Source of the DNA: Halostella pelagica
GTDB taxonomy: Archaea; Halobacteriota; Halobacteria; Halobacteriales; Natronoarchaeaceae
Length of the DNA stretch: 64,000 nucleotides
NCBI GenBank assembly: GCA_005954745.1
Contig: CP040679.1
Span: 1 to 64,000 of the forward strand
Direction: 5' to 3'
Part shown: positions 13,788 to 27,718 of the stretch, in pieces
Numbering within the stretch: the stretch's first letter is position 1
Layout: each line of letters starts with the position of its first letter
Notes under the pieces: generated by a model
What the model was told of the DNA's origin: nothing
Database searches by the model: none
Seen by the model: only the letters and a program-made list of their open reading frames with translations
Position numbers and translations under genes: made by a program

Positions 13788-13801
13788 TTAGGTCAGCCTA
13801 A
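13788..13801. promoter_or_regulatory. DtxR-type iron box overlapping the start of the siderophore-binding protein gene
   Basis: TTAGGTCAGCCTAA is a TTAGG-N4-CCTAA palindrome, the same half-sites as the bacterial DtxR/IdeR box. It follows the TATA-like TATATTTA at 13782-13789 and ends 5 nt before the ATG at 13807. A bound repressor would cover the transcription start. It predicts iron repression of the binding protein and the downstream aldo/keto reductase. Confidence 0.8.
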
Positions 13802-13806
13802 AAATC

Positions 13807-14946
13807 ATGGGTCGAGATTCCATAGGATCGACGACACCGACGCGGCGAGACTGCCTCAAATACACAGGAACAGCCGTCGGCGGCGGTTTGCTCGCCGGGT
13901 GTACAAGCACCGGTAGCTCCCAATCGGCAGAGGCGGACGACGACTCGTCGTATTCTGTCACGATAGAGCCGACCGGTGAAGTGACGTTCAACTCGGTTCC
14001 TGAGACGTGGGTCGCTGAGAACGCGAGTTGGGCCGACATGGGCGTTGCTCTCGGGATGGACAAGCCCAGTGCTGTCGTTCTCACGGACGAGTACCGAACC
14101 TGGCACTACGATGATATCCCGGGACTTTCGACGAGCAAGGACGACATGGTTTCTCTCTGGCAAGACGGGGTCGACAACGAACTCTTCATAGAGCTAGACG
14201 CCGGGGTCCACTTCATCGATCCGAATTACATGATCAACCTCATCCCGAACTGGGAGGAATCCGACGTCGAAGAGGTGAGCGAGCAGGTCGCTCCGTTCTG
14301 CGGCAATACGAGCTTCTCTACCTATCCCTGGCACGAGGACTATCCGTATTACGACCTGTACGAAGCCACCGAGAAGGTCGCAGAGGTATTCCAGCGAACG
14401 GATCGATATGAGGCGCTCGAAGACCTCCATAGCGAATTTCTCGACCGGGTTCAACAGCGGCTCCCGCCGGAGAGCGAACGACCAGAGATCGCGCTCCTCT
14501 CCCCGGCCTCCAGGGAACCAGAGAAGTTCTATCTGTATCGGCTCGGCGACAGAACCGCGTACAAGCACTGGCACGATCTCGGTATAAGCGACGCTCTCGA
14601 CGATACAGATATACCGAGCTTTACCTCCGATCGCGGCACGATCGATTACGAGCCGCTGTTAGAGTACGATCCGGAGATACTGATGTTCTACACCGACAAA
14701 CACTGGACGCGTTCGGACTTCCAGGACACGTTCCACACGTTTTTGGAGGATCACAGCGCGGCCAGTCGACTCACCGCGGTCCAGAACGGCGATGTGTATC
14801 CGGCCGGAGGGATGTATCAAGGGCCGATCATCAATCTCTCGAAGACCGAGCGCGCTGCGAAGCAACTGTTCCCCGACGAGTTTTCGCGGGACGAACAGCT
14901 CTACGACCGGCAACGCATCGCGGATATTCGAAGCGGAGATATCTAA
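13807..14946 (+). CDS. Iron-siderophore ABC transporter substrate-binding lipoprotein (FepB/BtuF-type)
   Basis: A 379-residue Tat lipoprotein: twin arginine at residues 13-14, hydrophobic stretch, lipobox LLAGC with Cys32. The mature part has the two-lobe periplasmic-binding-protein pattern of FepB/FhuD types, with ALGMDKPSAVVLTDEY near the first lobe and YEPLLEYDPEILMFY in the second. It would capture a ferric siderophore outside the membrane. No permease or ATPase gene is adjacent, so the membrane part must be encoded elsewhere. The start at 13807 is supported by a TATA element and an iron box directly upstream. The next gene begins after a 1-nt gap. Confidence 0.9.
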   Translation: MGRDSIGSTTPTRRDCLKYTGTAVGGGLLAGCTSTGSSQSAEADDDSSYSVTIEPTGEVTFNSVPETWVAENASWADMGVALGMDKPSAVVLTDEYRTWHYDDIPGLSTSKDDMVSLWQDGVDNELFIELDAGVHFIDPNYMINLIPNWEESDVEEVSEQVAPFCGNTSFSTYPWHEDYPYYDLYEATEKVAEVFQRTDRYEALEDLHSEFLDRVQQRLPPESERPEIALLSPASREPEKFYLYRLGDRTAYKHWHDLGISDALDDTDIPSFTSDRGTIDYEPLLEYDPEILMFYTDKHWTRSDFQDTFHTFLEDHSAASRLTAVQNGDVYPAGGMYQGPIINLSKTERAAKQLFPDEFSRDEQLYDRQRIADIRSGDI

Positions 14947-14947
14947 T

Positions 14948-15913
14948 ATGGAGTACACCTCGCTCGGAGATACCGGGCTTTCGGTGAGCCGGATCTGTCT
15001 TGGGTGTCTCGGGTTCGGCGACGGCAAGGAGTGGATGCTCGACGCTGACGAGAGCCAGGCGCTCATCGACAGGGCGATCGATCTCGGGATCAACTTCTTC
15101 GACACTGCGAACGTCTACTCTGACGGCCGGAGCGAGGAGATATTGGGCGAGGCGATCAGCGGCTACAACCGCGATAGCCTCGTGCTCGCGACGAAAGTGT
15201 TCGGCGAGATGGACGAGTCGAACCCGAACGCCTGCGGGCTCTCTCGAAAAGCCATCGAACAGGAACTCGAACACAGTTTGGAGCGGCTCGGCGTCGACAC
15301 TATCGACCTGTACCAGACCCACCGCTGGGACGACGAGACGCCGGTCGAGGAGACGCTCCGAACGCTTGACGACGCCGTCCGTCGCGGGTCCGTCCGGTAC
15401 GTCGGCGCTAGCACGACGCTTGCCTACCAACTCGCAGAAGCCCGTCGGGTGAGCGATGACCGCAGGCTTCAGCCGTTCGTCTCGATGCAGAACCATTACA
15501 ACCTGCTGTATCGGGAAGAGGAGCGGGAGATGCTCCCCTACTGTCGCGAGAACGGCGTGGGAGTACTGCCGTGGAGCCCGCTAGCGAAGGGATATCTCGC
15601 ACGACCGCACGAGGCGTTGGACGACACCGCGAGAGGGAAGCGCAACGATTACACGGACCTGTACCCGTACCTCGAGGGCAACGGACGCGAAATCAACGAA
15701 CGGGTCGAAGAGGTGGCGGCCGAGAAGGGCGTGACGATGGCACAGATCGCACTCGCGTGGCTACTGGAGAAAGACGTCGTCGACGCGCCGGTCGTCGGCA
15801 TCACCAGCGTCGAGCACTTAGAGGAGGCCGTCGACGCCGTGGATATCTCGCTCTCGGACTCGCAGGTCGAGTACCTCGAAGAACCGTACGAATCGGTCCG
15901 GCACACGCTCTGA
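14948..15913 (+). CDS. Aldo/keto reductase, co-transcribed with the siderophore-binding protein
   Basis: A 321-residue AKR TIM barrel. The catalytic tetrad is visible: Asp in FDTANVYSDG with the Tyr six residues later, Lys in LATKVFGE and His in LYQTHRWDD. The C-terminal phosphate-binding loop is in VVGITSVEHLEEA. AKRs reduce carbonyl compounds with NADPH. The gene starts one base after the stop of the siderophore-binding protein, so it shares the iron-boxed promoter. A role in siderophore maturation or release is possible but inferred only from context. Confidence 0.92.
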   Translation: MEYTSLGDTGLSVSRICLGCLGFGDGKEWMLDADESQALIDRAIDLGINFFDTANVYSDGRSEEILGEAISGYNRDSLVLATKVFGEMDESNPNACGLSRKAIEQELEHSLERLGVDTIDLYQTHRWDDETPVEETLRTLDDAVRRGSVRYVGASTTLAYQLAEARRVSDDRRLQPFVSMQNHYNLLYREEEREMLPYCRENGVGVLPWSPLAKGYLARPHEALDDTARGKRNDYTDLYPYLEGNGREINERVEEVAAEKGVTMAQIALAWLLEKDVVDAPVVGITSVEHLEEAVDAVDISLSDSQVEYLEEPYESVRHTL

Positions 15914-15979: not shown

Positions 15980-17470
15980 TCAGTCGTCCGGGGTCGGACG
16001 CTCGGGACGACCCGACTCCGCCACCGCTCCGCCAGGTGCGTCTCGAACGAACGCCGCCGGCGAGAAGTCCTGATAAACCGTGTCTTCGTCGACCGGATAC
16101 GGCGAGTCCTCCAGTATCTGGTTCAGGATGACGGCGTTTCGGTGCGTGCCGAGGCCGAGGTCGGGCGTTCCGACCCCGTGGGTGTGGATCTCGGCGTTCT
16201 GGACGAACACGTCTCCGTCGAGATCTGTGTCGAGCGCGTACTCCCGGGTTATCTCCAGTCGGCCGCGGTCGTCGCGTTCGATGTCGTCTTCGATACCCGA
16301 GAGAAAGGCCGGTGTCGGCCGGTGATACCCCGTCCCGAGAACGACGGCGGACGACTCGAAACTGAAGACGGTCTCCTCCTGCCACTGCCGGCAGTCGATC
16401 CGATACCGGCCGCCGTCGGTCCGTTCGATTCCTTCAACTTCGGTCATGGCGATCAGGCTCACGTCGGGGTCGGTAGTTCCGATCGAGTGCTCGTACAGCG
16501 TGTCGTAGATCGCGTCGCTCGTATCGGGGTCGATCCCCCTGTACAGCAGGTCCTGCTCCGGGAGCAGGTCGTCGCGGACAGGCTGTGGAAGGTCGTACAC
16601 GTAGTCGACGTACTCCGGCGTGAAGTGCTGGAGCCCCAGCTTGGAGTACTCCATCGGGAAGAACCCGTCCGAGCGCGTCACCCAGTTGAGGCGGTAGTCC
16701 GCCTCGGGCTGGCGTTCGAGCAGGTCCTGAAACACCTCGGCCGCGCTCTGCCCGGATCCGACCACCGCGATTGAATCGGCCGCCAGTACAGCCTCCCGGT
16801 TGAACCGATAGCTGGCGGTGTGGAACACCTCGTCGTCCGGGAAGTCCCGAAACTCCTCGGGGACGTAAGGTCTGGATCCGACACCGACGACCAGGTCCCG
16901 CGCGAGATACGTGAACCGATCCCCGCCGTCGGTTCCGGCCGTCGCGTCGCTCGCTTGTTCGTCGCTGTCGCCGGGGCGGACCGCGGTCACTCGGAAGTTC
17001 GCAGTCGGGTGGTCGACGGGTTCGACGGAGACCACGCGGCGCGAAAAGCGGGTGATATCGAGCCGTTCGGCCACCCACCGGCAGTACTCGTCGTACTCCC
17101 GGCGAGGGATCTGGAACGTCTCGTAGAAGTAGAACTCGTAGATCCGGTCCGTCTCGCGAAGGTAGTTCAGGTAACTGTAGGGGTTGGTCGGATCTGCGAG
17201 GGTCACAACGTCCGCGAGGAACGGGACTTCCAGCGTCGTTCCTTCGATGAGCATCCCCTCGTGCCAGGAGAACTCGGACCGCTGTTCGAGCACGACAGCG
17301 TCGAGGTCGATATCGTCGCTACCGTCCACGAGCGCACCGAATCCGAGATTGAACGGCCCGAGACCGATCCCGACAACGTCGTGGACCGACTCGGGTTCGG
17401 GGTTCCGTCCCGCGGCGGCGTCTGTCGCGTCCCGTTCGCCGGTCGGGAACTCGTCAGGGTCGTCCGTCAC
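15980..17470 (-). CDS. Siderophore diamine N-monooxygenase (IucD/RhbE family)
   Basis: A 496-residue flavin N-hydroxylase of the lysine/ornithine monooxygenase family. The FAD motif is VVGIGLGPFNLGF, the NADPH motif is VVGSGQSAAEVF, and the C-terminal LGTGYHRPTPAFL matches the family's ATGY motif. It would N-hydroxylate a diamine (here expected 1,3-diaminopropane) before acetylation. I chose the GTG at 17470, whose GTGA overlaps the stop of the upstream acetylase gene. The frame is open to an ATG at 17542, which would overlap the upstream gene far more. It is the last gene of a five-gene overlapping operon. Confidence 0.92.
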   Translation of the reverse strand: MTDDPDEFPTGERDATDAAAGRNPEPESVHDVVGIGLGPFNLGFGALVDGSDDIDLDAVVLEQRSEFSWHEGMLIEGTTLEVPFLADVVTLADPTNPYSYLNYLRETDRIYEFYFYETFQIPRREYDEYCRWVAERLDITRFSRRVVSVEPVDHPTANFRVTAVRPGDSDEQASDATAGTDGGDRFTYLARDLVVGVGSRPYVPEEFRDFPDDEVFHTASYRFNREAVLAADSIAVVGSGQSAAEVFQDLLERQPEADYRLNWVTRSDGFFPMEYSKLGLQHFTPEYVDYVYDLPQPVRDDLLPEQDLLYRGIDPDTSDAIYDTLYEHSIGTTDPDVSLIAMTEVEGIERTDGGRYRIDCRQWQEETVFSFESSAVVLGTGYHRPTPAFLSGIEDDIERDDRGRLEITREYALDTDLDGDVFVQNAEIHTHGVGTPDLGLGTHRNAVILNQILEDSPYPVDEDTVYQDFSPAAFVRDAPGGAVAESGRPERPTPDD

Positions 17471-18099
17471 GAGTCGGTCACCTCGGTCGCGTCGGTAGTC
17501 CGTCCGGGCGCGTACGCCCGCTCGAATCGCTCGCGCTCGCACACCATCAGCGCCGCCTCCTTCCCCTCTGCGGGGAAGTAGAACGTGTCGCGGCGCTCGA
17601 AGCCGGCCGACTGGAAGGTCGCGAGCGCAGCGTCGTTACGCACGTCTGGCTCCGCGACGACGCGGTCGGTCTCGTCGTGACGGAACGCCATATCGACGAT
17701 CCCCCGGAGGAGAGCGCTGGCATAGCCGTTCCCGAGATACTCGTCCGGGCCGATCAGCAAGTGGATCCCCTGGTCGCTTTCACTGGCCTCGTACTGGTCC
17801 GCGAGCGGGTCGTCTGCCGGCCAGTAGCGTTCCCAGTAACTCATCGGGACGCCGTCGAGGCGGCCGACGTAGGGGGTCATGTGCTCGTCCGCCAACTTCT
17901 CTACGAGCGTCCGCCGAAACACCGGGAGCGGAGCGGCGAGTTCCCAGTATGGCTGCACGTGGTCTCTTCCGAGCCACGCGTGTAGCCGTTCTAGGTCCGG
18001 GCCAATCTCGACGGGCCGGAACGAGACTGTCCGGTCGATGCTCTCGACGCGGCGTCTGTACGAGCAGTCGGCGGCAACGATGCTGAGCGCGTCAGTCAT
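17467..18099 (-). CDS. Siderophore acetyltransferase, GNAT family (IucB/RhbD type)
   Basis: A 210-residue GNAT protein. The acetyl-CoA loop is YLGNGYASALLRG and the C-terminal FQSAGFERRDTFYFP strand is typical. The N-terminal LHAWLGRDHVQPYWEL matches the IucB/RhbD-type hydroxylamine acetylases. It would acetylate N-hydroxy-1,3-diaminopropane to form the hydroxamate. It overlaps the NIS synthetase gene upstream and the hydroxylase gene downstream by 4 nt each. Confidence 0.9.
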   Translation of the reverse strand: MTDALSIVAADCSYRRRVESIDRTVSFRPVEIGPDLERLHAWLGRDHVQPYWELAAPLPVFRRTLVEKLADEHMTPYVGRLDGVPMSYWERYWPADDPLADQYEASESDQGIHLLIGPDEYLGNGYASALLRGIVDMAFRHDETDRVVAEPDVRNDAALATFQSAGFERRDTFYFPAEGKEAALMVCERERFERAYAPGRTTDATEVTDS

Positions 18100-19883
18100 G
18101 TTCTGGTCACTATCGGGTTCTCGATCTCGACGTAGACGGACTGGTTCTCGAGCGATCCCTCCAGTTCGTCTAACCCCTCGAAACGGGTCAGAAGGTTCCC
18201 CTTACAGGGGATTCGCTCGTCTGTCAGGAGAGCAGAGACGAGCTCCGAGGCGGGCGGTTCGAACTCCCGAAGCGCTTCGAGTTCCGACCGGAGATCGGCG
18301 AGGAGCGCCGACTCGTCGGCGAGCCCGGCAACGCCCAGCGCGTTCACGACCCCGAAGGCGTTGTTACAGACGGTGTAGTACCGGAGTCGCTCGTCGGCGA
18401 CGGGATCGGGACAGATCGTGTCCGCCCGCTCGCCGACACCGGGGAGCCACTCGTCGACCGCATCGTAGCGCGACTCAGGGAAGTAGTAGCCCTGGTTGTC
18501 GCGGTAGTACCCCTCGGCGGGCCAGCCATGGTCGTCGAGTCCCACGAGCGTGTTCTGCTGGTGGGCCTCGACGCCGACGCCGAGTTCGAAGTACGTCCAC
18601 AGAACCGGCCGGAGCGTGACGGCGAGGTACTCGCGGAACCACTCGCGGGCGACCTCGTTCTCGGGGCGGTCTCTCTGCTGTGCGAGATTCCGGACGACGC
18701 GGGCGAGTCGGGACGGACCGTCGACCCCGTCCTGACAGAGCGCGACGACCGGTGAGACGTTCTCGGCGTCCGCGCCGCGGAAGGGGTTCTCGCGGAGGAC
18801 CGTCTCGAACCCGGACTCCGGACCGTCACCGATGTCCACAGTCAGTGCGGCCGGATCCTCGACGATGCTGAACCGGGGGAACTCCCCGCGCAATCGGTCC
18901 CCGAACTCCGTCCCGAGCAACTCCGAGACGGCGACGCCGCGGGCTAGCTCCGGGCGCTTGTTCGTCCGCTCGGCGTTCGTGATTTCGACGGCGAGCGACC
19001 CCTTGACCATGAACGGGGCGTCCGGGCTCCACAGCGTGCGGACGGACGATGTCGGATAGAACGTCGGGCCGAACGCGCCGAGGTCGATCAGGTCGCCTCG
19101 CGCCAGCGCCGCAGCGACGTGGTCCTGTGAACTCAGATAGTCGGCCTGCCACGGATGGGTCGGAACGAGAACCTTACCGTCGTCGATAGCCGCTGCGGCG
19201 TCCGCTGGACAGTCCCCTGCCAGCGTCTCCGAAACCCACTCGGCTGCAGTACCGTCACGGGCCGACCAGTCCGAAACCACGTCCGGCTCCGCCGCGAAGT
19301 ACCGCAGTTGGAACTCGCCGCGGAGCTCCGGAGCGTACGTCGGCGCGTCGTGCGGGGTCACGCCTTCGCGACTCTTCGGCGTCGGATGGAGGAGATGGCC
19401 GTACAGTAGCGACTGTTCGGCGTCGCGAAACGTCGTCTCGGTGCCGTACAGTCCGTCGGTGTCGTCGCGCTGTCGGACGAACCGTTCGATCGCCGCGCGA
19501 GACGCCAGGACGCGACGGAAGAGGTCCGTCCCGGCCGAGACGGGCATACCGGTCGCCGACAGCGCGAGTTCGCGGCGCGCGAGTGCGGCGAGCGTCCCGG
19601 CGTCTATCTCCACGACGCCCCCGTCGCCGCAGTGGGTGTACCCTGGGAGGTCGAACAGATGCCGCCCCGTGGCTGACTCGTACCGAAGCGGGACGTACGC
19701 CGTCGTCCACTGCCGTTCGAAGAGGATCCGGACGACGCGACCGTCGGCGTCGACCGCCGTCTCGGCCGCAGAGACTATCTCGCCGTCGCCGGTCTCCCTG
19801 AGATAACAGTTGAGGAACGCGTGGAATGTGGCCGACTCCGCGTGCTCGTCGGGCGTCGAACAGCCCGCACCCACGGTCGTCAT
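18096..19883 (-). CDS. IucA/IucC family NIS siderophore synthetase (RhbC-like)
   Basis: A 595-residue ATP-dependent synthetase for NRPS-independent siderophores. Family motifs are THPWQADYL, SSVRTLWSPDAPFMVKGS, ITNAERTNKR and GVEAHQQNTLVGLDDHG. It joins citrate or a citryl intermediate to the hydroxamate amine through an acyl-adenylate. Position third in the operon matches rhbC of the rhizobactin 1021 cluster. It overlaps its neighbours by 4 nt on both sides. A second synthetase at 25817-27718 would complete the symmetric product. Confidence 0.95.
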   Translation of the reverse strand: MTTVGAGCSTPDEHAESATFHAFLNCYLRETGDGEIVSAAETAVDADGRVVRILFERQWTTAYVPLRYESATGRHLFDLPGYTHCGDGGVVEIDAGTLAALARRELALSATGMPVSAGTDLFRRVLASRAAIERFVRQRDDTDGLYGTETTFRDAEQSLLYGHLLHPTPKSREGVTPHDAPTYAPELRGEFQLRYFAAEPDVVSDWSARDGTAAEWVSETLAGDCPADAAAAIDDGKVLVPTHPWQADYLSSQDHVAAALARGDLIDLGAFGPTFYPTSSVRTLWSPDAPFMVKGSLAVEITNAERTNKRPELARGVAVSELLGTEFGDRLRGEFPRFSIVEDPAALTVDIGDGPESGFETVLRENPFRGADAENVSPVVALCQDGVDGPSRLARVVRNLAQQRDRPENEVAREWFREYLAVTLRPVLWTYFELGVGVEAHQQNTLVGLDDHGWPAEGYYRDNQGYYFPESRYDAVDEWLPGVGERADTICPDPVADERLRYYTVCNNAFGVVNALGVAGLADESALLADLRSELEALREFEPPASELVSALLTDERIPCKGNLLTRFEGLDELEGSLENQSVYVEIENPIVTRT

Positions 19884-21478
19884 TGGTCCACCTCCCGAAC
19901 CGCGGCATCATCGACTCGCGTGCTGTCCGTCGACGAATCCGCTCGTTCCGACTCGCCGGCCTCGACGGCCGCGGCTAGCTGCTTCCCCTCCTTGAGAAGT
20001 TTCTGGATGTCCGCTTCCGTCGTGCGTGGATTCAACAACGTGAGCTTGAGATGCGTCCGCCCGTCGACCGCGGTCCGTGCGACGACAGCCTCGCCCGCGT
20101 CGAACATTGATTCGCGGATCTCGGCGTTCACGCGGTCGGACCACTCCTCCGCGGACAGATCAGGATGTTGCCGTTCGGGTTTGTATCTGAACGTGACCAC
20201 GTTAAGCGTCGGGTCGCAAGCGAGTTCGTAGGCGGGAGCGGCGCGGACCATCTCGGCCGCCCGGTCCGCGGTTTCCAGGGTCCGGTGGACGAGTGCCGCC
20301 ATTCCCTTGCGGCCGAGCGTACGGAAGGCGACGTACGGTTTGAGCGCGTCGAAGCGTCGCGTCGTCAGGACGGACTTCTCGACGCGGTGAGGAACGTCGT
20401 CGTCCTCCGGATTGAGGTACGCCGCGTTGCGCGACATCAGGTCGAAGTCGCCGCCGTCCCCAAGCAGGAACGCGCCGCAGGAGATCGGTTGGAAGAACAG
20501 TTTATGGAAGTCGACGGCAAGCGAGTCGGCCTGTTCGATGCCGGCGATCGACTCCCGATGGTCGTCGCTGACGGCGACCGCACCGCCGTAAGCCGCGTCA
20601 ACGTGGTACCAGAGGTCGTGTTCGGCGGCGATGTCCGCGAGTTCCGCGAGCGGGTCGATGCTTCCGAAGTCCGTCGTCCCAGCGGTGCAAAACAGGGCGA
20701 ACGGACGTTTCCCGTCGGATTCCAGCCGCTGTATCGTCGATCGCAGCGACCGAGTGTCCATCCTGTACTCGTCGTCGCTCGGGACGGTGACCACAGCGTC
20801 CTCCCCCAGTCCGAGCTCCGCTGCCGCCTGGGCCGCGGTGAAGTGGGCCTGGTCGGAACAGAGCACGCGCATGTCGGCCGCCTCGGGGGGGAGCCCGCAC
20901 TCCCGAACCGAACGGTCGAGACGGTCGGCGACGTACCGGTCGCGGGCGAGCAACAGGCCCTGATAGTTCGACTGTGTGCCACCGGTCGTGACGACCCCGT
21001 CAGCGTCCTTTCCGAGGTCGAACAGGTCTGTGAGGTCGTCGATCAACCGCTCTTCGACCACCGTCGCGGCCGGGGCCTGGTCGAAGGAGTCCATCGACTG
21101 GTTGATAGCCGTGAGCATCGCCTCTGCGACCAGTCCAGGGATCATCGGCGGGCACTGGAGATGCGCCACACAGGCCTCGTCGTTCGGATAAACGGAGTTT
21201 TCAAGAACCCCCTCGGTGACCTCTTCGAGAACCTCAAGTAACGGGGACCCCGAGTCGGGTATCGTGTCGCAGTCCAGACTCGAACGGAGCGCCTCGTACT
21301 GACGACCTGAGTACGGACGGTCAGTGTCGCCGACGGCGTCTGCAACCGCATCGGTCGTCCACTGCATCGCGTCGAGATACTTCCTGTTCCCCGTCGGACT
21401 GCCGAGGAAGAGCCCGTCCGCGAGTGTTCGCCCGTCCGGATGCCCGCCGTCTCCGTCGAGCGACTTCCGAGACTTCAT
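19880..21478 (-). CDS. L-2,4-diaminobutyrate decarboxylase (PLP; RhbB/Ddc type)
   Basis: A 532-residue group II PLP decarboxylase. It shows TTGGTQSNYQGLLLARDRY, HVDAAYGGAVAVSD and the Schiff-base lysine in AVDFHKLFFQPISC. It would convert L-2,4-diaminobutyrate to 1,3-diaminopropane, the diamine of schizokinen- and rhizobactin-type siderophores. The start overlaps the stop of the aminotransferase gene by 4 nt (ATGA). Glutamate- or aromatic-type decarboxylation is less likely given the adjacent aminotransferase. Confidence 0.93.
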   Translation of the reverse strand: MKSRKSLDGDGGHPDGRTLADGLFLGSPTGNRKYLDAMQWTTDAVADAVGDTDRPYSGRQYEALRSSLDCDTIPDSGSPLLEVLEEVTEGVLENSVYPNDEACVAHLQCPPMIPGLVAEAMLTAINQSMDSFDQAPAATVVEERLIDDLTDLFDLGKDADGVVTTGGTQSNYQGLLLARDRYVADRLDRSVRECGLPPEAADMRVLCSDQAHFTAAQAAAELGLGEDAVVTVPSDDEYRMDTRSLRSTIQRLESDGKRPFALFCTAGTTDFGSIDPLAELADIAAEHDLWYHVDAAYGGAVAVSDDHRESIAGIEQADSLAVDFHKLFFQPISCGAFLLGDGGDFDLMSRNAAYLNPEDDDVPHRVEKSVLTTRRFDALKPYVAFRTLGRKGMAALVHRTLETADRAAEMVRAAPAYELACDPTLNVVTFRYKPERQHPDLSAEEWSDRVNAEIRESMFDAGEAVVARTAVDGRTHLKLTLLNPRTTEADIQKLLKEGKQLAAAVEAGESERADSSTDSTRVDDAAVREVDQ

Positions 21479-22827
21479 TCCGAAACCGCCCTCCGGTTCG
21501 ACACCGTCGATTCGACAGCTTCGGTGAAACGAGCCGCGATCTCGTCGATCTGCCGGGCGGAGACGACAAGCGGCGGCAGGAACCGCGCGACCGCGGAATC
21601 GCGCCCCCCTGTCTCGATGATCAGGCCGCGGTCGAAACAGGCCGACGACACGGCCGATGCGAGGTCGCCGTCGGGCGGCGGAACCTCGCCATCGACGACG
21701 GCCTCGGGATCAACGAACTCGACTCCGAGCATCAGCCCTCGGCCCCGTACGTCGCCGACGGCGTCAAACCGGTCGGCCAGCGTTTCGAGGGGCCGCCTGA
21801 GTCGCGCGCCCATCTCGGCCGCATGCTCGTCGAGGTTTTCCTCCATGATGTGACGCATCGTAACGCGGCCGGCCGCCATCGCGAGTTGATGGCCGCGGAA
21901 CGTCCCGGCGTGGGCGCCGGGTTCCCACTCGTCGAGGGATTCGTCGTAGACGACGACTGCGAGCGGAAGCCCGCCCCCGACGGCCTTCGAGCAGGTGATA
22001 ACGTCCGGAACGATGTCGGCGCGTTCGAACGCCCACGTCTCGCCGGTCCTCCCCATACCGGTCTGGATCTCGTCGACGATCAACGGGACATCCGCCTCGC
22101 GGGTGAGCCGTCTCACCTCCCGGACCCAGTCGTCCGGCGCGGGATTGACGCCGCCCTCGCCCTGAACGAGTTCGAGGATCATCCCTGCCGGATCGGTGAC
22201 GCCGCTCTCGCTGTCGTTGATCACTCGATCAACGAAGTGGCTAATCGATTCGTGGTCGCCGTCGGGCCCGAACGGGTGCCGGTAGCGGTCCGGATACGGG
22301 AGATGATGGACGTCACTCATCAGTCCCGGGACCGCTTCTTTCGCGTCCGTATCGCCCATGAGACTGAGAGATCCGCTGGTCATGCCGTGATAGCCGCCCT
22401 GGAACCCGAGGACGGAGCGGTTTCCGGTAGCGGTTTTGACGAGTTTGAGCGCCGCTTCCACAGCGTCGGTACCCGCCGGAGAACAGAACTGGACCTTCGC
22501 GCTTTCGGTGAATTCCTCGGGGAGGCTCTCGAACAGCGTGTCCACGAACGCCTCCTTCTCGGGCGTCGTGATGTCGAGGGTGTGAAGCGGCCGCTCCTCC
22601 TCGAGGAGTCGCTCAAGTTCGCGCGTCACCTTCGGGTGGTTGTGCCCGAGAGCGAGCGTGCCCGCACCGGCAAGGCAGTCGAGATACTCGTTTCCGTCAG
22701 CGTCCACGATTTCCAGGCCCCGCGCGCGAGAGATCGCGAACGGTAACGACCGAGGATACGTTCGGGCGCTCGATTCGCGGTTGCTCTGACTCTCACGCAG
22801 TCGGGCGTTCGACTGTTCGGTTCTCAT
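21475..22827 (-). CDS. Diaminobutyrate-2-oxoglutarate aminotransferase (RhbA/Dat type)
   Basis: A 450-residue class III PLP aminotransferase. It contains GLEIVDADGNEYLDCLAGAG, PLIVDEIQTGMGRTG and the PLP lysine in TCSKAVGGGLP. It would make L-2,4-diaminobutyrate from aspartate semialdehyde and glutamate, the first step of the diamine branch. First gene of the five-gene operon, with two DtxR-type boxes at 22889-22902 and 22923-22936 upstream of its ATG. Confidence 0.94.
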   Translation of the reverse strand: MRTEQSNARLRESQSNRESSARTYPRSLPFAISRARGLEIVDADGNEYLDCLAGAGTLALGHNHPKVTRELERLLEEERPLHTLDITTPEKEAFVDTLFESLPEEFTESAKVQFCSPAGTDAVEAALKLVKTATGNRSVLGFQGGYHGMTSGSLSLMGDTDAKEAVPGLMSDVHHLPYPDRYRHPFGPDGDHESISHFVDRVINDSESGVTDPAGMILELVQGEGGVNPAPDDWVREVRRLTREADVPLIVDEIQTGMGRTGETWAFERADIVPDVITCSKAVGGGLPLAVVVYDESLDEWEPGAHAGTFRGHQLAMAAGRVTMRHIMEENLDEHAAEMGARLRRPLETLADRFDAVGDVRGRGLMLGVEFVDPEAVVDGEVPPPDGDLASAVSSACFDRGLIIETGGRDSAVARFLPPLVVSARQIDEIAARFTEAVESTVSNRRAVSE

Positions 22828-22888: not shown

Positions 22889-22902
22889 TTAGGTTGACCT
22901 AA
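22889..22902. promoter_or_regulatory. DtxR-type iron box of the rhbABCDE-like operon
   Basis: TTAGGTTGACCTAA, a perfect TTAGG-N4-CCTAA palindrome flanked by A/T tracts, 62 bp upstream of the aminotransferase ATG on the leftward promoter. Confidence 0.8.
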
Positions 22903-23005: not shown

Positions 23006-24235
23006 TCAGCCGCTGGTTACGCTCGGGATCTCGTCGTAGGTAGTGTAGAGACAGCCTATGACCACCACGGCGGCGGAGATGGGGACGAGTGCCGTGAGCC
23101 GATACAGCGACGGGAACCCGATCGCGTTTCCGAGCGGGAGCGACACGAGCAACCCGACCGTCGCGCCCAGATCGCCCAGCGCATTGTACGTCCCCGTCGC
23201 ACTCCCCATTTCGGCGCTCGCGGTTAGGTCGCCAAGCAGCGAGACGAGCGGACCGCCCACGCCGCCTTGCCCGGCACCCAAAAGCAGGACAGACGCGAGG
23301 AGTATCGGGAACGTCGTCCCGATCGCCAGCAGTACCATTCCGGCCGACAGGCAGACGAAACAGGTGAGGATCACGGGAACGCGGCGACCCATGATGTCGC
23401 TCGCTTTTCCGCCAGCCACCGAGAAGACTGAGCCTGTGAGGACGCTAGCACCGATGAGTACGCCGGAGGTACCCTGTGCACCGACCGCGACACTACCTGC
23501 CTCGACGGTGTCGAGGAACGACACGAGCGTCGCGAACACGACGCCGTTGTAAGTGAAAAGCAGGGCGAAGTTCGCCCCGCCGGTGATCAGCGCTGGCGAA
23601 CTGAGATCGATGTTACGGAGGGCAACGCCGCCGGTGCCGTCTACCGCGTGGGTCTCGGGGATGGCGACGTAGGTGACGAGACAGGCCAGCACGGAGAGAC
23701 CGGTCGCGACGGCGAACGCGGCGCTGGCTCCGTACACCTCGCCGACTATCCCGCCCAGAGACATCCCCGCGGGAAACCCCAACGACGTGCCGCCGCGGAC
23801 GATACTCATCGTCCGGCCCCTTGACTCGGGGTCACAGACGTCAGCCGCGATCGTGTACGCGGTCGCGAGCACGAAGGCGCTCCCGAGGCCCCACAGTACA
23901 CGCGCGCCGAGGAACCACACGGCAGGCATGGAACTGCGCAAAGCGAGCAGATAGCCCGCGGTCGCCACCGTTTCGAGGATCACGCCGGCGACGAACGGCG
24001 TTCGCGTCCCGACGCGATCGACGACGGCCCCGACCGGGGCGTTCGCCAGCAGCCTGACGATGCGGTTCGCGCTCAAGATCACGCCGACGACGACCGGAGC
24101 GATACCGACGACCGCCCCGAGGTTCGGGAGTATCGGGAAGACGACACCGCCGCCGAACCCCAGGAAAAACGTGCTGACGAGGACCGCTACGACGGCGTGA
24201 GGGAGCCCGAACACGCCGAGTCGCCGCGTCGCCAT
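23006..24235 (-). CDS. MFS transporter, probable siderophore exporter
   Basis: A 409-residue protein with twelve predicted membrane segments. The MFS loop 2-3 motif is NAPVGAVVDRVGTRTP and a second half-motif is GGKASDIMGRRVP. The start codon overlaps the stop of the glutamine-synthetase-like gene (TAATG), so both are on one iron-boxed transcript. By context it would export the completed siderophore, or an intermediate. Export is inferred from position and family, since importers of similar fold exist. Confidence 0.88.
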   Translation of the reverse strand: MATRRLGVFGLPHAVVAVLVSTFFLGFGGGVVFPILPNLGAVVGIAPVVVGVILSANRIVRLLANAPVGAVVDRVGTRTPFVAGVILETVATAGYLLALRSSMPAVWFLGARVLWGLGSAFVLATAYTIAADVCDPESRGRTMSIVRGGTSLGFPAGMSLGGIVGEVYGASAAFAVATGLSVLACLVTYVAIPETHAVDGTGGVALRNIDLSSPALITGGANFALLFTYNGVVFATLVSFLDTVEAGSVAVGAQGTSGVLIGASVLTGSVFSVAGGKASDIMGRRVPVILTCFVCLSAGMVLLAIGTTFPILLASVLLLGAGQGGVGGPLVSLLGDLTASAEMGSATGTYNALGDLGATVGLLVSLPLGNAIGFPSLYRLTALVPISAAVVVIGCLYTTYDEIPSVTSG

Positions 24236-25575
24236 TAGTAGACACTCCGGAGTCGCTCGCGCTCCCAGGAGACCGCGCTATCGGTGAACTGCTCCCAGTG
24301 GCTCCGTTTGACGTCGAGATAGGTCTCGAACAGTGTCGCACCCAGCGTCTCACGCATGACTGGGTCGTCCTCGAACGCGTCGAGTGCCTCGCCCAGCGTC
24401 CGGGGGAGCCGTGTCACGTCGTGTGCGTCGCGCTCTGCCGCCGTGAGCGTCGCCGGGTCGACGGAGACGGACTCGGGCACGTCGAGTCCGCGTTCGATGC
24501 CGTCGTAGCCCGCGGCCAGGAGACCCAGCAGAGCGAGGTACGGGTTAGCCGTGCAATCAGCCGCCCGGAACTCGATCCGGGTCGCGGCCGCCGGGTCGGA
24601 CTGTCCGACCGCCGGCACTCGAACCAGGGCTTCGCGGTTCCCCCGTCCCCAGCAGCGAAACGCCGTCGCGCCGAGTTGCGGACGTAGTCGAGTGTAGGAG
24701 TTCGCTGTCGGCGCGGTCAGCGCGACGAGCGCGTCTGCATGCGCTAAAACGCCCCCGATGAACTGTCGACCCGTCTGACTCACCCCGCCGCGATCGGCGT
24801 CGTAGAACCGGTTCGTGTCGTCCCACAGCGACAGGTGGATGTGACACCCGTTCGTCGAGTGTTCGAACGGCTTCGGCAGAAACGTCGCGTTGTACCCGTG
24901 GTCGTGTGCGACGCTGTTGACCGTCTCCCGGAAGAGGACGTGCTCGTCGGCCGCCTGTACACCCGGAGCGTGGCCGGTTACGATCTCGTGTTTCCCGGCC
25001 GCGTACTCCGGGTAGTACTTCTCCACCGGGATGTCCTGGGCCTTCAGCGCGTCCGTCATTGCCAGGATCGTCGCGTGGGTCTCCCGCGTGCTCTCAGTGA
25101 CGTAGGCTCCGCGCTCGTCGACCCTGCTAACGGACCCGTCGTCGGCGCTCTCGAAGAGATGGAACTCGCTTTCGAAAGCCACCTCGGGAGCGAGTCCCGC
25201 GTCCCGTAGATCGTCCACGAATGACTGCAACGAAGACCGCGGGTCGACAGCCCACGGCTCCCCGTCGACCGTTTCGACATCACAGAGCATCGCACCGGTA
25301 CGCTCTGCGTAAGGCAGCGCCCGGAACGTCTCCGGGTCTGGACAGAGCCTGACCTCGCCGGCGGCGTCGAACCGGCCGTTCTTGTCTCGGACCCCGAGAG
25401 CGTTGTACGTCTGGACGAGTTGTGAGAGCATCACGCCATCCGCGACGGCCGACTGGACCTTCGACGCGTCGACTGCATGGGTCCGTACGGCCCCGCTCTG
25501 GGTCGCGAACAACAGCCGCACGAGATCACAGTTGCCGTCTCGACATCGTTCGACCACCGTTTGTTCCTTTGGCAT
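24235..25575 (-). CDS. Glutamine-synthetase-family ligase in the siderophore regulon
   Basis: A 446-residue GlnA-like protein with a beta-grasp N-terminus (residues 1-100) and the catalytic barrel: [12 protein letters not shown], the [10 protein letters not shown] metal region, [36 protein letters not shown] and [11 protein letters not shown]. It resembles the gamma-glutamyl-polyamine ligase (PuuA-like) branch more than assimilatory GlnA, since the usual tyrosine adenylylation and full feedback motifs are not evident. A DtxR-type box lies 26 nt upstream of the ATG. It may gamma-glutamylate the diamine or a siderophore intermediate (inference). Confidence 0.9.
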
Positions 25576-25745: not shown

Positions 25746-25820
25746 ATGCGTAGACGGGCCGACCCATCGATCAGACAGAGGCGGAACCGAGACCCCCTAA
25801 GCAGGGAGGAACAGCTATGA
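25746..25820 (+). CDS. Putative 24-codon Arg-rich leader ORF overlapping the NIS synthetase start
   Basis: An ATG 25 nt downstream of the TATA centre, the position of a leaderless start, opens a 24-residue frame beginning MRRRADPSIRQRRNRDPL. Eight of its 24 residues are Arg. Its stop TGA (25818-25820) overlaps the synthetase ATG (25817) in the string CTATGA. A Shine-Dalgarno-like GGAGGA lies 7 nt before that ATG, inside the leader. This arrangement would couple synthetase translation to the leader. It may instead be an untranslated leader. Confidence 0.5.
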   Translation: MRRRADPSIRQRRNRDPLSREEQL

Positions 25821-27718
25821 ACGGCGTCGAGGCGCTCGAATCGACTCTCCGGGAGGACGTCTGGACAACAGTCAACCGAGAGCTGTTCCGTAAGGTCCTC
25901 GCGGAGTTCATGTACGAAGAGATCATCACGCCCGCGCCGATGGCGACCATTCGAGAGCCCGCCTCCGGAAACACCGGAGGCAACGGAGACGGCGACGAGA
26001 CGTGGACGCGATACACGCTCTCTCTGACCGACGGCGTCGAGTATCGCTTCGACGCACAGGAGCGCCCGCTCGACAGCTATCGGATCAGGCCCGGCTCGAT
26101 AGAGCGCAGGGAACGCGGGAGCGAGTGGCAGTCGGCGACCGATCCCCTCTCTTTCATCCTCGACGCACGCGACTACATCGGGATCGATCCATCCACGGCG
26201 GCACACCTCGTCCGGGAGTACAACAACACACTGGTAGCGGACGCGCACATCCGAGCGAGGAAGGCCGACCGGACAGAGAACTCACTGCTGGACCTGCCGT
26301 ACGCCGAAATCGAGGGAGAGATGGAGGGCCACCCGTGGTTCACGTACAACAAGGGGCGCGTCGGCTTCGGGTATGACGACTATCTCAAATACGCGCCCGA
26401 GTCCAAACAGCGCCAGCGCCTCTCGTGGATCGCCGCGAGCCGAGACCGAGCGACGTTCACCGGGGTCGACGGCCTCGATCACGCTGGGCTCATCGACGAC
26501 GAACTCGGATCCATGGCCGACGAATTCCGGGCGACGTTGGCCGAGGACGGACTCGATCCGGCGAACTACTACTTACTGCCGGTCCACGACTGGCAGTGGT
26601 CGGATAGCATCGTCCAGTTGTTCGCAGACGACATCGCCACCGACGCTATCGTACCGCTCGGCGAGGGGTCCGATGAATACTTGCCACAGCAGTCGATACG
26701 GACGTTTTCGAACGTTTCAGCGCCGGAAAAGCGTCACGTCAAACTCCCCATTCGAGTGTTGAACACGAACGTGTATCGCGGGATACTCGGTGAGCAGGCG
26801 GAGGCCGCTCCCCGCGTTACCGAGTTCATCAAGTCTGTGCGGGACGGCGATTCGTTCCTGCGGGACGAACGCCGCCTGATCCTGCCCGGCGAGGTAGCGA
26901 GCGTCAACTACGAACACCCCAAGTTCTCACAGTTCGAGGAGGCACCGTATCAGTTTCACGAACTGCTGGGTTGCGTCTGGCGGGAGAGCGTTCACTCGCT
27001 GATCGACGACGGGGAGCGACCGCTCACACTCGCGGCGCTCCTGCACGAGGACTTCGACGGGACGCCGGTGGTCACGACGTTAGCCGACCGCTCGGGGGTG
27101 ACGCTGGAGGCGTGGCTCGACGAGTTGTTCGAAGTTCTGCTGGAACCGCTACTGCACTTTCTCTACAAGTACGGAACTGTGTTCATGCCACACGGTACGA
27201 ACGTCGTGTTAGTCCTCGAAGACGGAGTCCCCTCTCGCATCGCAGTAAAGGACTTCGTCGACGAGGTCGCGATCACGGACCGGGAACTCCCCGAATTGGA
27301 CGACGTACTTCCGACCGACCTTCGCGAGGACGAACGGTACAAACACCATATACTACACCAGGTCGCGCCGGAACCGCTGTGCCAGCACATCTTCGGGACG
27401 CTGTTTGTCGGCGTGTTTCGGTACGTTTCGGACCTGCTGGCTCGCCATCACGACTACGACGAACGGACGTTCTGGGAACAGGTCAGGGAAGCAGTCGACA
27501 GCTATCAGGCGCGGTTTCCGGAACTCGACGACCGCTTCGAGCTATTCGACCTCACCAGACCTCGGTTCACGAAACACTGCCTGAACCGCAACAGGATCGT
27601 CGACTACGGCTACGGTGACTTCAGCACTCGGCCGAAGGTAAAGGGTCACGGCACCGTCTCGAATCCCCTGGCCGGAACGGACGCCGAGAGGCGAGGCAGC
27701 TTCGGCCGTCCTCGGTGA
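25817..27718 (+). CDS. IucA/IucC family NIS siderophore synthetase (second, RhbF/IucC-like)
   Basis: A 633-residue NIS synthetase. Family signatures are LLPVHDWQWSDSIVQLFA, RTFSNVSAPEKRHVKLPI, LNTNVYRGILG and the nucleotide-binding FMPHGTNVVLVLEDG near residue 455. The N-terminal half carries about 30 extra residues (GNTGGNGDGDE) compared with common members. With the synthetase at 18096-19883 it would add the second hydroxamate arm to citrate. It is divergent from the GlnA-like gene and has its own iron box. The ATG at 25817 is preceded by GGAGGA, unusual among the leaderless genes here. Confidence 0.95.
   Translation: MNGVEALESTLREDVWTTVNRELFRKVLAEFMYEEIITPAPMATIREPASGNTGGNGDGDETWTRYTLSLTDGVEYRFDAQERPLDSYRIRPGSIERRERGSEWQSATDPLSFILDARDYIGIDPSTAAHLVREYNNTLVADAHIRARKADRTENSLLDLPYAEIEGEMEGHPWFTYNKGRVGFGYDDYLKYAPESKQRQRLSWIAASRDRATFTGVDGLDHAGLIDDELGSMADEFRATLAEDGLDPANYYLLPVHDWQWSDSIVQLFADDIATDAIVPLGEGSDEYLPQQSIRTFSNVSAPEKRHVKLPIRVLNTNVYRGILGEQAEAAPRVTEFIKSVRDGDSFLRDERRLILPGEVASVNYEHPKFSQFEEAPYQFHELLGCVWRESVHSLIDDGERPLTLAALLHEDFDGTPVVTTLADRSGVTLEAWLDELFEVLLEPLLHFLYKYGTVFMPHGTNVVLVLEDGVPSRIAVKDFVDEVAITDRELPELDDVLPTDLREDERYKHHILHQVAPEPLCQHIFGTLFVGVFRYVSDLLARHHDYDERTFWEQVREAVDSYQARFPELDDRFELFDLTRPRFTKHCLNRNRIVDYGYGDFSTRPKVKGHGTVSNPLAGTDAERRGSFGRPR

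Follow-up and report, generated by a model that had tools for sequence, protein, structure and literature searches.

We have identified a glutamine synthetase (GS)-like gene, here designated GGS, that lies within an iron-box-bearing siderophore cluster of Halostella pelagica, in a stretch of 64,000 nucleotides that we call the window. The amine specificity of its product and its association with siderophore genes are well supported; candidate substrates and products are put forward conditionally. We lean slightly towards the reading that GGS is a glutamate gamma-carboxyl:amine ligase of the GS fold that is dedicated to siderophore synthesis and feeds a type C NIS synthetase. An iron-switched ligase alongside such a synthetase suggests that glutamate is joined to an amine in the making or tailoring of an undescribed iron-scavenging molecule. 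A search of the open-access literature found neither a description of a GS-like ligase within a NIS cluster nor a siderophore structure published for archaea of this lineage. Of haloarchaeal NIS clusters, the one studied to date, in Haloferax volcanii, has been read as schizokinen (PMC7407949). Our comparisons reveal a second haloarchaeal cluster type, in which a glutamyl ligase is dedicated to the pathway and hydroxamate enzymes are often absent, and thus the schizokinen reading cannot be applied to several genera. A further suggestion from them, open to testing in a tractable organism, is that GlnA-2, published as an enzyme of polyamine catabolism, is a member of a lineage that is regulated by iron and associated with siderophores.

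The window contains all six enzymes of a schizokinen/rhizobactin-type pathway, namely DAT, DDC, type A and type C synthetases, N-hydroxylase and acetyltransferase (Table 1). A schizokinen-type cluster has no further ligase, and the window departs from this pattern by the addition of GGS. Canonical haloarchaeal clusters (loci L060-L072) keep the order DAT-DDC-IucA-like-GNAT-hydroxylase-type C in one run, and all 13 examined are free of the ligase. The initial annotation had held that the classical pathway needs no such enzyme, and these 13 clusters, together with that of H. volcanii (PMC7407949), bear it out. The same six enzyme types make up the H. volcanii cluster (HVO_B0041-B0046, PMC7407949); the window differs from it in the divergent orientation and separate clade of its type C synthetase, and in having a ligase and an MFS exporter besides.

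Table 1. Features of the siderophore region of the window, in order of position
Feature	Position	Strand	Basis or remark
Iron box ahead of siderophore-binding protein gene	13788-13801		Perfect palindrome
Siderophore-binding protein candidate	13807-14946	+	Peripla_BP_2; own iron box
Diamine N-monooxygenase	15980-17542	-	Lys_Orn_oxgnase
Siderophore-type GNAT acetyltransferase	17467-18099	-	Acetyltransf_8
IucA-like type A NIS synthetase	18096-19883	-	Pfam; nearest solved structure IucA
DDC, L-2,4-diaminobutyrate decarboxylase	19880-21478	-	NF052646 429 bits, below cut-off of 900; Pyridoxal_deC
DAT, diaminobutyrate-2-oxoglutarate transaminase	21475-22827	-	NCBIfam TIGR00709, PRK06938
Iron box ahead of DAT	22889-22902		Perfect palindrome
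MFS exporter candidate	23006-24235	-	Pfam MFS_1; start overlaps ligase stop
GGS, GS-like gamma-glutamyl-amine ligase, NF045547 member	24235-25575	-	NCBIfam score; Pfam Gln-synt_C and Gln-synt_N_2; tree
Iron box of ligase-exporter unit, TTAGGNNNNCCTAA	25601-25614		-39 to -26 from ligase ATG
Iron box of divergent NIS synthetase, TTAGGNNNNCCTAA	25728-25741		89 bases ahead of synthetase ATG
Type C-like NIS synthetase (DesD/DfoC/AlcC/IucC kin), constant GGS partner	25817-27718	+	Pfam IucA_IucC and FhuF; own clade (100/99)

Two other features of this genome were recorded. An aldo-keto reductase (AKR) gene at 14942-15913 comes after the siderophore-binding protein gene; this PBP-AKR pair is conserved in loci L167 and L214, and another AKR gene lies close to a chromosomal iron box (L180). 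An unlinked third NIS synthetase is encoded at L170:9189-11276 (G000:C1) and shares ~40% identity with the third synthetase encoded by genome G171.

GGS encodes a protein of 446 amino acids with both the N- and C-terminal GS domains (Pfam). It scored 724.9 bits over its whole length against the NCBIfam model for gamma-glutamylputrescine synthetase (NF045547, GGputSyn; cut-off 650) and 274.4 bits against the GlnA model (TIGR00653; cut-off 429). RefSeq labels relatives of the gene as glnA2, gamma-glutamylputrescine synthetase. With residues numbered according to Table 2 of PMC8394153, those that bind metal, ATP and glutamate are retained (E135, E137, E190, E197, H245, R296, R314, R319, E335 and R337), and the GS residues D50, S53, Y179, N264, G265 and E327, which include those for ammonia (D50 and E327, with Y179, N264 and G265 around them), are replaced by S51, L53, A157, S240, T241 and G302, respectively. 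The residue check by raw numbering excludes L051_10, L042_9 and L044_11, in which the numbering is shifted. Twenty positions distinguish the subclade of the window protein from a 13-row non-siderophore haloarchaeal clade, and the 19 positions that the published table lists for the active site include five of these (S51, A157, T241, G302 and R337; hypergeometric p ~0.0008). Such differences are consistent with another amine substrate, without naming which.

These data also bear on the notion that GGS is an assimilatory or stand-by glutamine synthetase that was captured by the iron regulon. The GS domains are what would be expected from it, but the score falls below the GlnA cut-off, D50 and E327 of the ammonia site are gone (here S51 and G302), the protein sits in a clade apart from GlnA, and a single ordinary GlnA is encoded elsewhere in the genome, on C1. 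Assimilatory GlnA identity is ruled out by score, residues and tree, and we rate capture of such an enzyme as close to negligible. Grouping with assimilatory GlnA, which the initial annotation had named as one result that would speak against its proposal, was thus not what we found.

In a tree of 72 rows, a 26-row clade (100/99) contains every NIS-linked member, 22 including L168, and the window protein falls in a 15-row subclade (100/100), nearly all members of which lie in NIS siderophore loci. Trees and E-values are based on sampled genomes, and the tree was built before the pairs of G349 and G371 described below turned up, so that both stand outside it. The siderophore-associated ligase clade occurs in 19 of 292 haloarchaeal genomes; IucA/C is encoded in all 19, as compared with 77 of the 292 overall (Fisher p ~2e-12, with genomes counted as independent and relatedness left uncorrected), and in none of nine genomes with other NF045547-like members. 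The co-occurrence with NIS genes that had been proposed as a check was therefore found. Bacterial relatives in siderophore loci are not indicated: tblastn of window proteins against 80 relatives detected no NIS neighbors other than in haloarchaea.

The characterized enzyme nearest to these proteins is GlnA-2 of Haloferax mediterranei (HFX_1688), a dodecamer whose recombinant form showed only glutamate-putrescine ligase activity and no GS activity; its gene is flanked by MATE and ABC transporter genes near glnA-3 (PMC8394153). In the same work, its promoter reporter showed activity in every medium tried, and growth of the mutant on putrescine was altered, as would fit a role in catabolism or detoxification; both results count against the favored reading of GGS. 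We placed GlnA-2 by synteny and published residues via Haloferax mucosum, and orthology on this basis is probable. Of the 19 residues given for GlnA-2 in the published table, 18 are matched by the first H. mucosum copy (L051:8895-10232), and the remaining one looks like an off-by-one in that table; the order MATE-glnA-transporter-glnA is that of H. mediterranei, and the copy falls in the subclade of the window protein (100/100) with an iron box at -36. Because the presumed GlnA-2 ortholog shares its subclade, the window protein can credibly be assigned ligase activity. Through the H. mucosum copy, GlnA-2 and GGS have in common this subclade and the replaced ammonia-site residues. They differ in that GlnA-2 has been described as nitrogen-catabolic, whereas GGS has a type C NIS synthetase gene on one side and DAT on the other and is coupled to an MFS gene. 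The text of PMC8394153 makes no mention of siderophores or iron, and our data suggest that the published catabolic role deserves a second look.

The 241-bp gap between GGS and the divergent iucA/iucC gene (25817, + strand) holds two separate perfect TTAGGNNNNCCTAA palindromes. Four boxes were observed in the 64-kb window as compared with 0.01 expected from shuffles, and 14 in the 3.94-Mb genome as compared with two for a reversed control pattern; elsewhere in the genome, boxes sit ahead of FecCD and Peripla_BP_2 genes, among others. The two boxes in the gap, the enrichment in window and genome, and the nature of the box targets point to apparent control of ligase and exporter as one unit by an iron box. 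The GGS stop codon overlaps the MFS start codon by one base (TAATG), and the MFS gene is kept beside GGS in L035, L164 and L167. The initial annotation had placed a GlnA-family ligase within the iron regulon, with an iron box and an overlapping start in common with the exporter gene. The open reading frame and a perfect box at its promoter agree with this; the overlap is real, being that of the ligase stop with the exporter start, and the common box is the one ahead of the apparent ligase-exporter unit, the synthetase having a separate box. With positions measured from homologous starts rather than gene-caller starts, a perfect box lies 27-39 bases ahead of the start codon in 15/15 subclade members. 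Two more members of the wider ligase clade have one at -47 and -51, and it is absent in 16/16 relatives from other haloarchaeal clades. The lack of a perfect box at the ligases of G349 and G371 counts against the favored reading of GGS. We take the palindromic promoter box as the mark of probable membership of GGS in a DtxR-type iron regulon, with repression by iron as the predicted outcome.

The most persistent neighbor of GGS is the type C synthetase, which is encoded near it in nearly all ligase-bearing subclade loci and mostly divergently. The IucC1 proteins encoded divergently from GGS form a single 14-row clade (100/99), separate from the type C proteins of canonical clusters, and the nearest solved kin of the window's type C protein in the PDB are DesD, DfoC and AlcC. 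In Halocatena marina, only synthetase and MFS accompany the ligase at the locus. In G349 and G371 the synthetase-ligase pair stands alone, with a complete canonical cluster elsewhere in the genome. The nearest relative of the window, G300 (84%), keeps synthetase, ligase and MFS beside a broken DAT remnant; its local DAT-to-hydroxylase block is lost, and a DAT-to-hydroxylase operon lies on another contig, with no type C gene in the stretch examined. The synthetase-ligase partnership outlasts all other cluster genes.

Two loci deserve separate mention. The pathway of G300 appears to be split over two places (L167 with L215). In G382, a 5'-truncated ligase gene (L214:8473-10011) lies by a fragment of an IucA-like synthetase gene, with PBP and AKR genes alongside, and the whole looks like a decayed form of the cluster.

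Type C enzymes of the DesD/AlcC kind form a bond between an amine and the carboxylate that an N-acylated diamine carries, and their substrates are N-succinyl-diamines. We know of no characterized type C synthetase of the DesD/DfoC/AlcC group that works with a GS-like ligase. The mechanism that we propose builds on what can be read from the genes, namely the family, the retained catalytic residues and the lost ammonia site, the iron box and the synthetase partnership; from these we infer in which order the steps run, what is finally made and how it is exported. As in GS, ATP would activate glutamate to gamma-glutamyl phosphate, from which the acyl group would pass to a primary amine larger than ammonia, which in the window would be diaminopropane or diaminobutyrate. 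At low iron, a DtxR-type repressor would leave the box overlying the promoter, and ligase and exporter would then be co-produced with the divergent type C synthetase. This synthetase could use the gamma-glutamyl amide as an amine arm on a citryl intermediate or as an N-succinyl-diamine-like substrate, as a gamma-glutamyl-diamine would offer the carboxylate and amine that type C enzymes need. The product would presumably exit through the MFS protein.

The main rival to a role in siderophore synthesis is overflow capping, in which the ligase would cap surplus diaminopropane, diaminobutyrate or putrescine on induction of the pathway and the MFS protein would expel the capped amine, as a safety valve. 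PuuA of E. coli and the gamma-glutamylpolyamine synthetases of Streptomyces (GlnA2/GlnA3) cap amines in this manner, and the presumed chemistry, transfer of the glutamate gamma-carboxyl onto an amine with ATP, is that of GGS. Streptomyces GlnA2 has been reported to aid survival at toxic polyamine levels (PMC8998196), the presumed GlnA-2 ortholog acts on putrescine and its mutant grows differently on it, and the H. mucosum copy resides in a locus without a NIS synthetase. However, the 13 canonical clusters make the same diamines without such a gene, and the pairs of G349 and G371 have no diamine-making gene alongside, the constant neighbor being the condensing enzyme. GGS is 27% identical to PuuA and has an iron box at its promoter, and neither the window region nor any GGS locus examined contains a relative of the catabolic partners PuuB, PuuC or PuuD, the PuuE matches in NIS loci being the DAT gene. 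We accord diamine capping an appreciable but minor chance.

Seven genomes with the ligase in a NIS locus (G171, G184, G105, G168, G082, G083 and G114; G184 is Haloarcula salina) have no Lys_Orn_oxgnase match genome-wide and no siderophore-type GNAT, an absence that is strong but not absolute in that they are rated 99% complete and some are draft assemblies. Schizokinen could therefore not be made there by the known route. In G082, G083 and G114 there is in addition no diaminobutyrate decarboxylase (best matches ~1e-12, short and distant), so that gamma-glutamyl-diaminopropane cannot be the general product, and diaminobutyrate would be the obvious alternative amine. As general rules, two suggestions of the initial annotation are thus unsupported: gamma-glutamylation of 1,3-diaminopropane, given the three genomes without the decarboxylase, and protection of an intermediate, if this is taken to be a hydroxamate, given the seven without the hydroxylase.

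On the protecting-group reading, one amine of the diamine would be gamma-glutamylated for clean hydroxylation and acetylation of the other, with the glutamyl group later removed. It would accord with an amidase gene beside or near the ligase in L040, L041, L052, L058 and L166 of the wider clade, mostly with a second GNAT. No amidase or PuuD-type hydrolase is encoded in the window or the subclade loci, however, and canonical clusters work without the ligase; together with the seven genomes that have no N-hydroxylase, this makes a temporary protecting group improbable. Glutamine synthetases accept hydroxylamine, and glutamate might instead be joined directly to the hydroxylamine of N-hydroxy-diaminopropane, in place of acetyl, to give a gamma-glutamyl hydroxamate. 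The window and G056 do combine hydroxylase and ligase, but the window retains its acetyltransferase and most subclade ligase loci have no hydroxylase, and we consider this route very improbable.

A new product is the best reading for the ligase-bearing loci. Tentatively, we see it as a real though lesser possibility that in haloarchaea such as Haloarcula salina, with the ligase in the NIS cluster and a genome free of N-hydroxylase, gamma-glutamyl-diamine or gamma-glutamyl-diaminobutyrate serves the type C synthetase as substrate for a hydroxamate-free, glutamate-containing class of siderophores, and that the organism of the window makes a mixed or additional product.

Haloarchaeal NIS clusters, mostly from Haloarcula (L034, L036, L037, L033, L043, L045 and L046), have neither N-hydroxylase nor siderophore GNAT genome-wide and probably make non-hydroxamate siderophores; several of these loci encode an ABC exporter and one more NIS synthetase, the third. 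RraA-like genes lie beside the ligase lineage in L033 (6037-6708), L034, L036, L037, L042, L044, L047 and L051, and HpcH/HpaI genes in L039, L040, L041, L052 and L166, with neither RraA-like nor HpcH aldolase-family genes in the 13 ligase-free NIS loci. These recurrent aldolase-family genes may serve like SbnG in providing citrate or an analogue. A cassette of GNAT, amidase, ligase, MOSC and HpcH aldolase genes, whole or partial, recurs in the wider ligase clade (L040, L041, L052, L058 and L166). Lastly, a polysaccharide-deacetylase-family gene adjoins the MATE exporter gene in NIS loci with and without the ligase (L042:13898-14737, L044, L051, L067 and L068).
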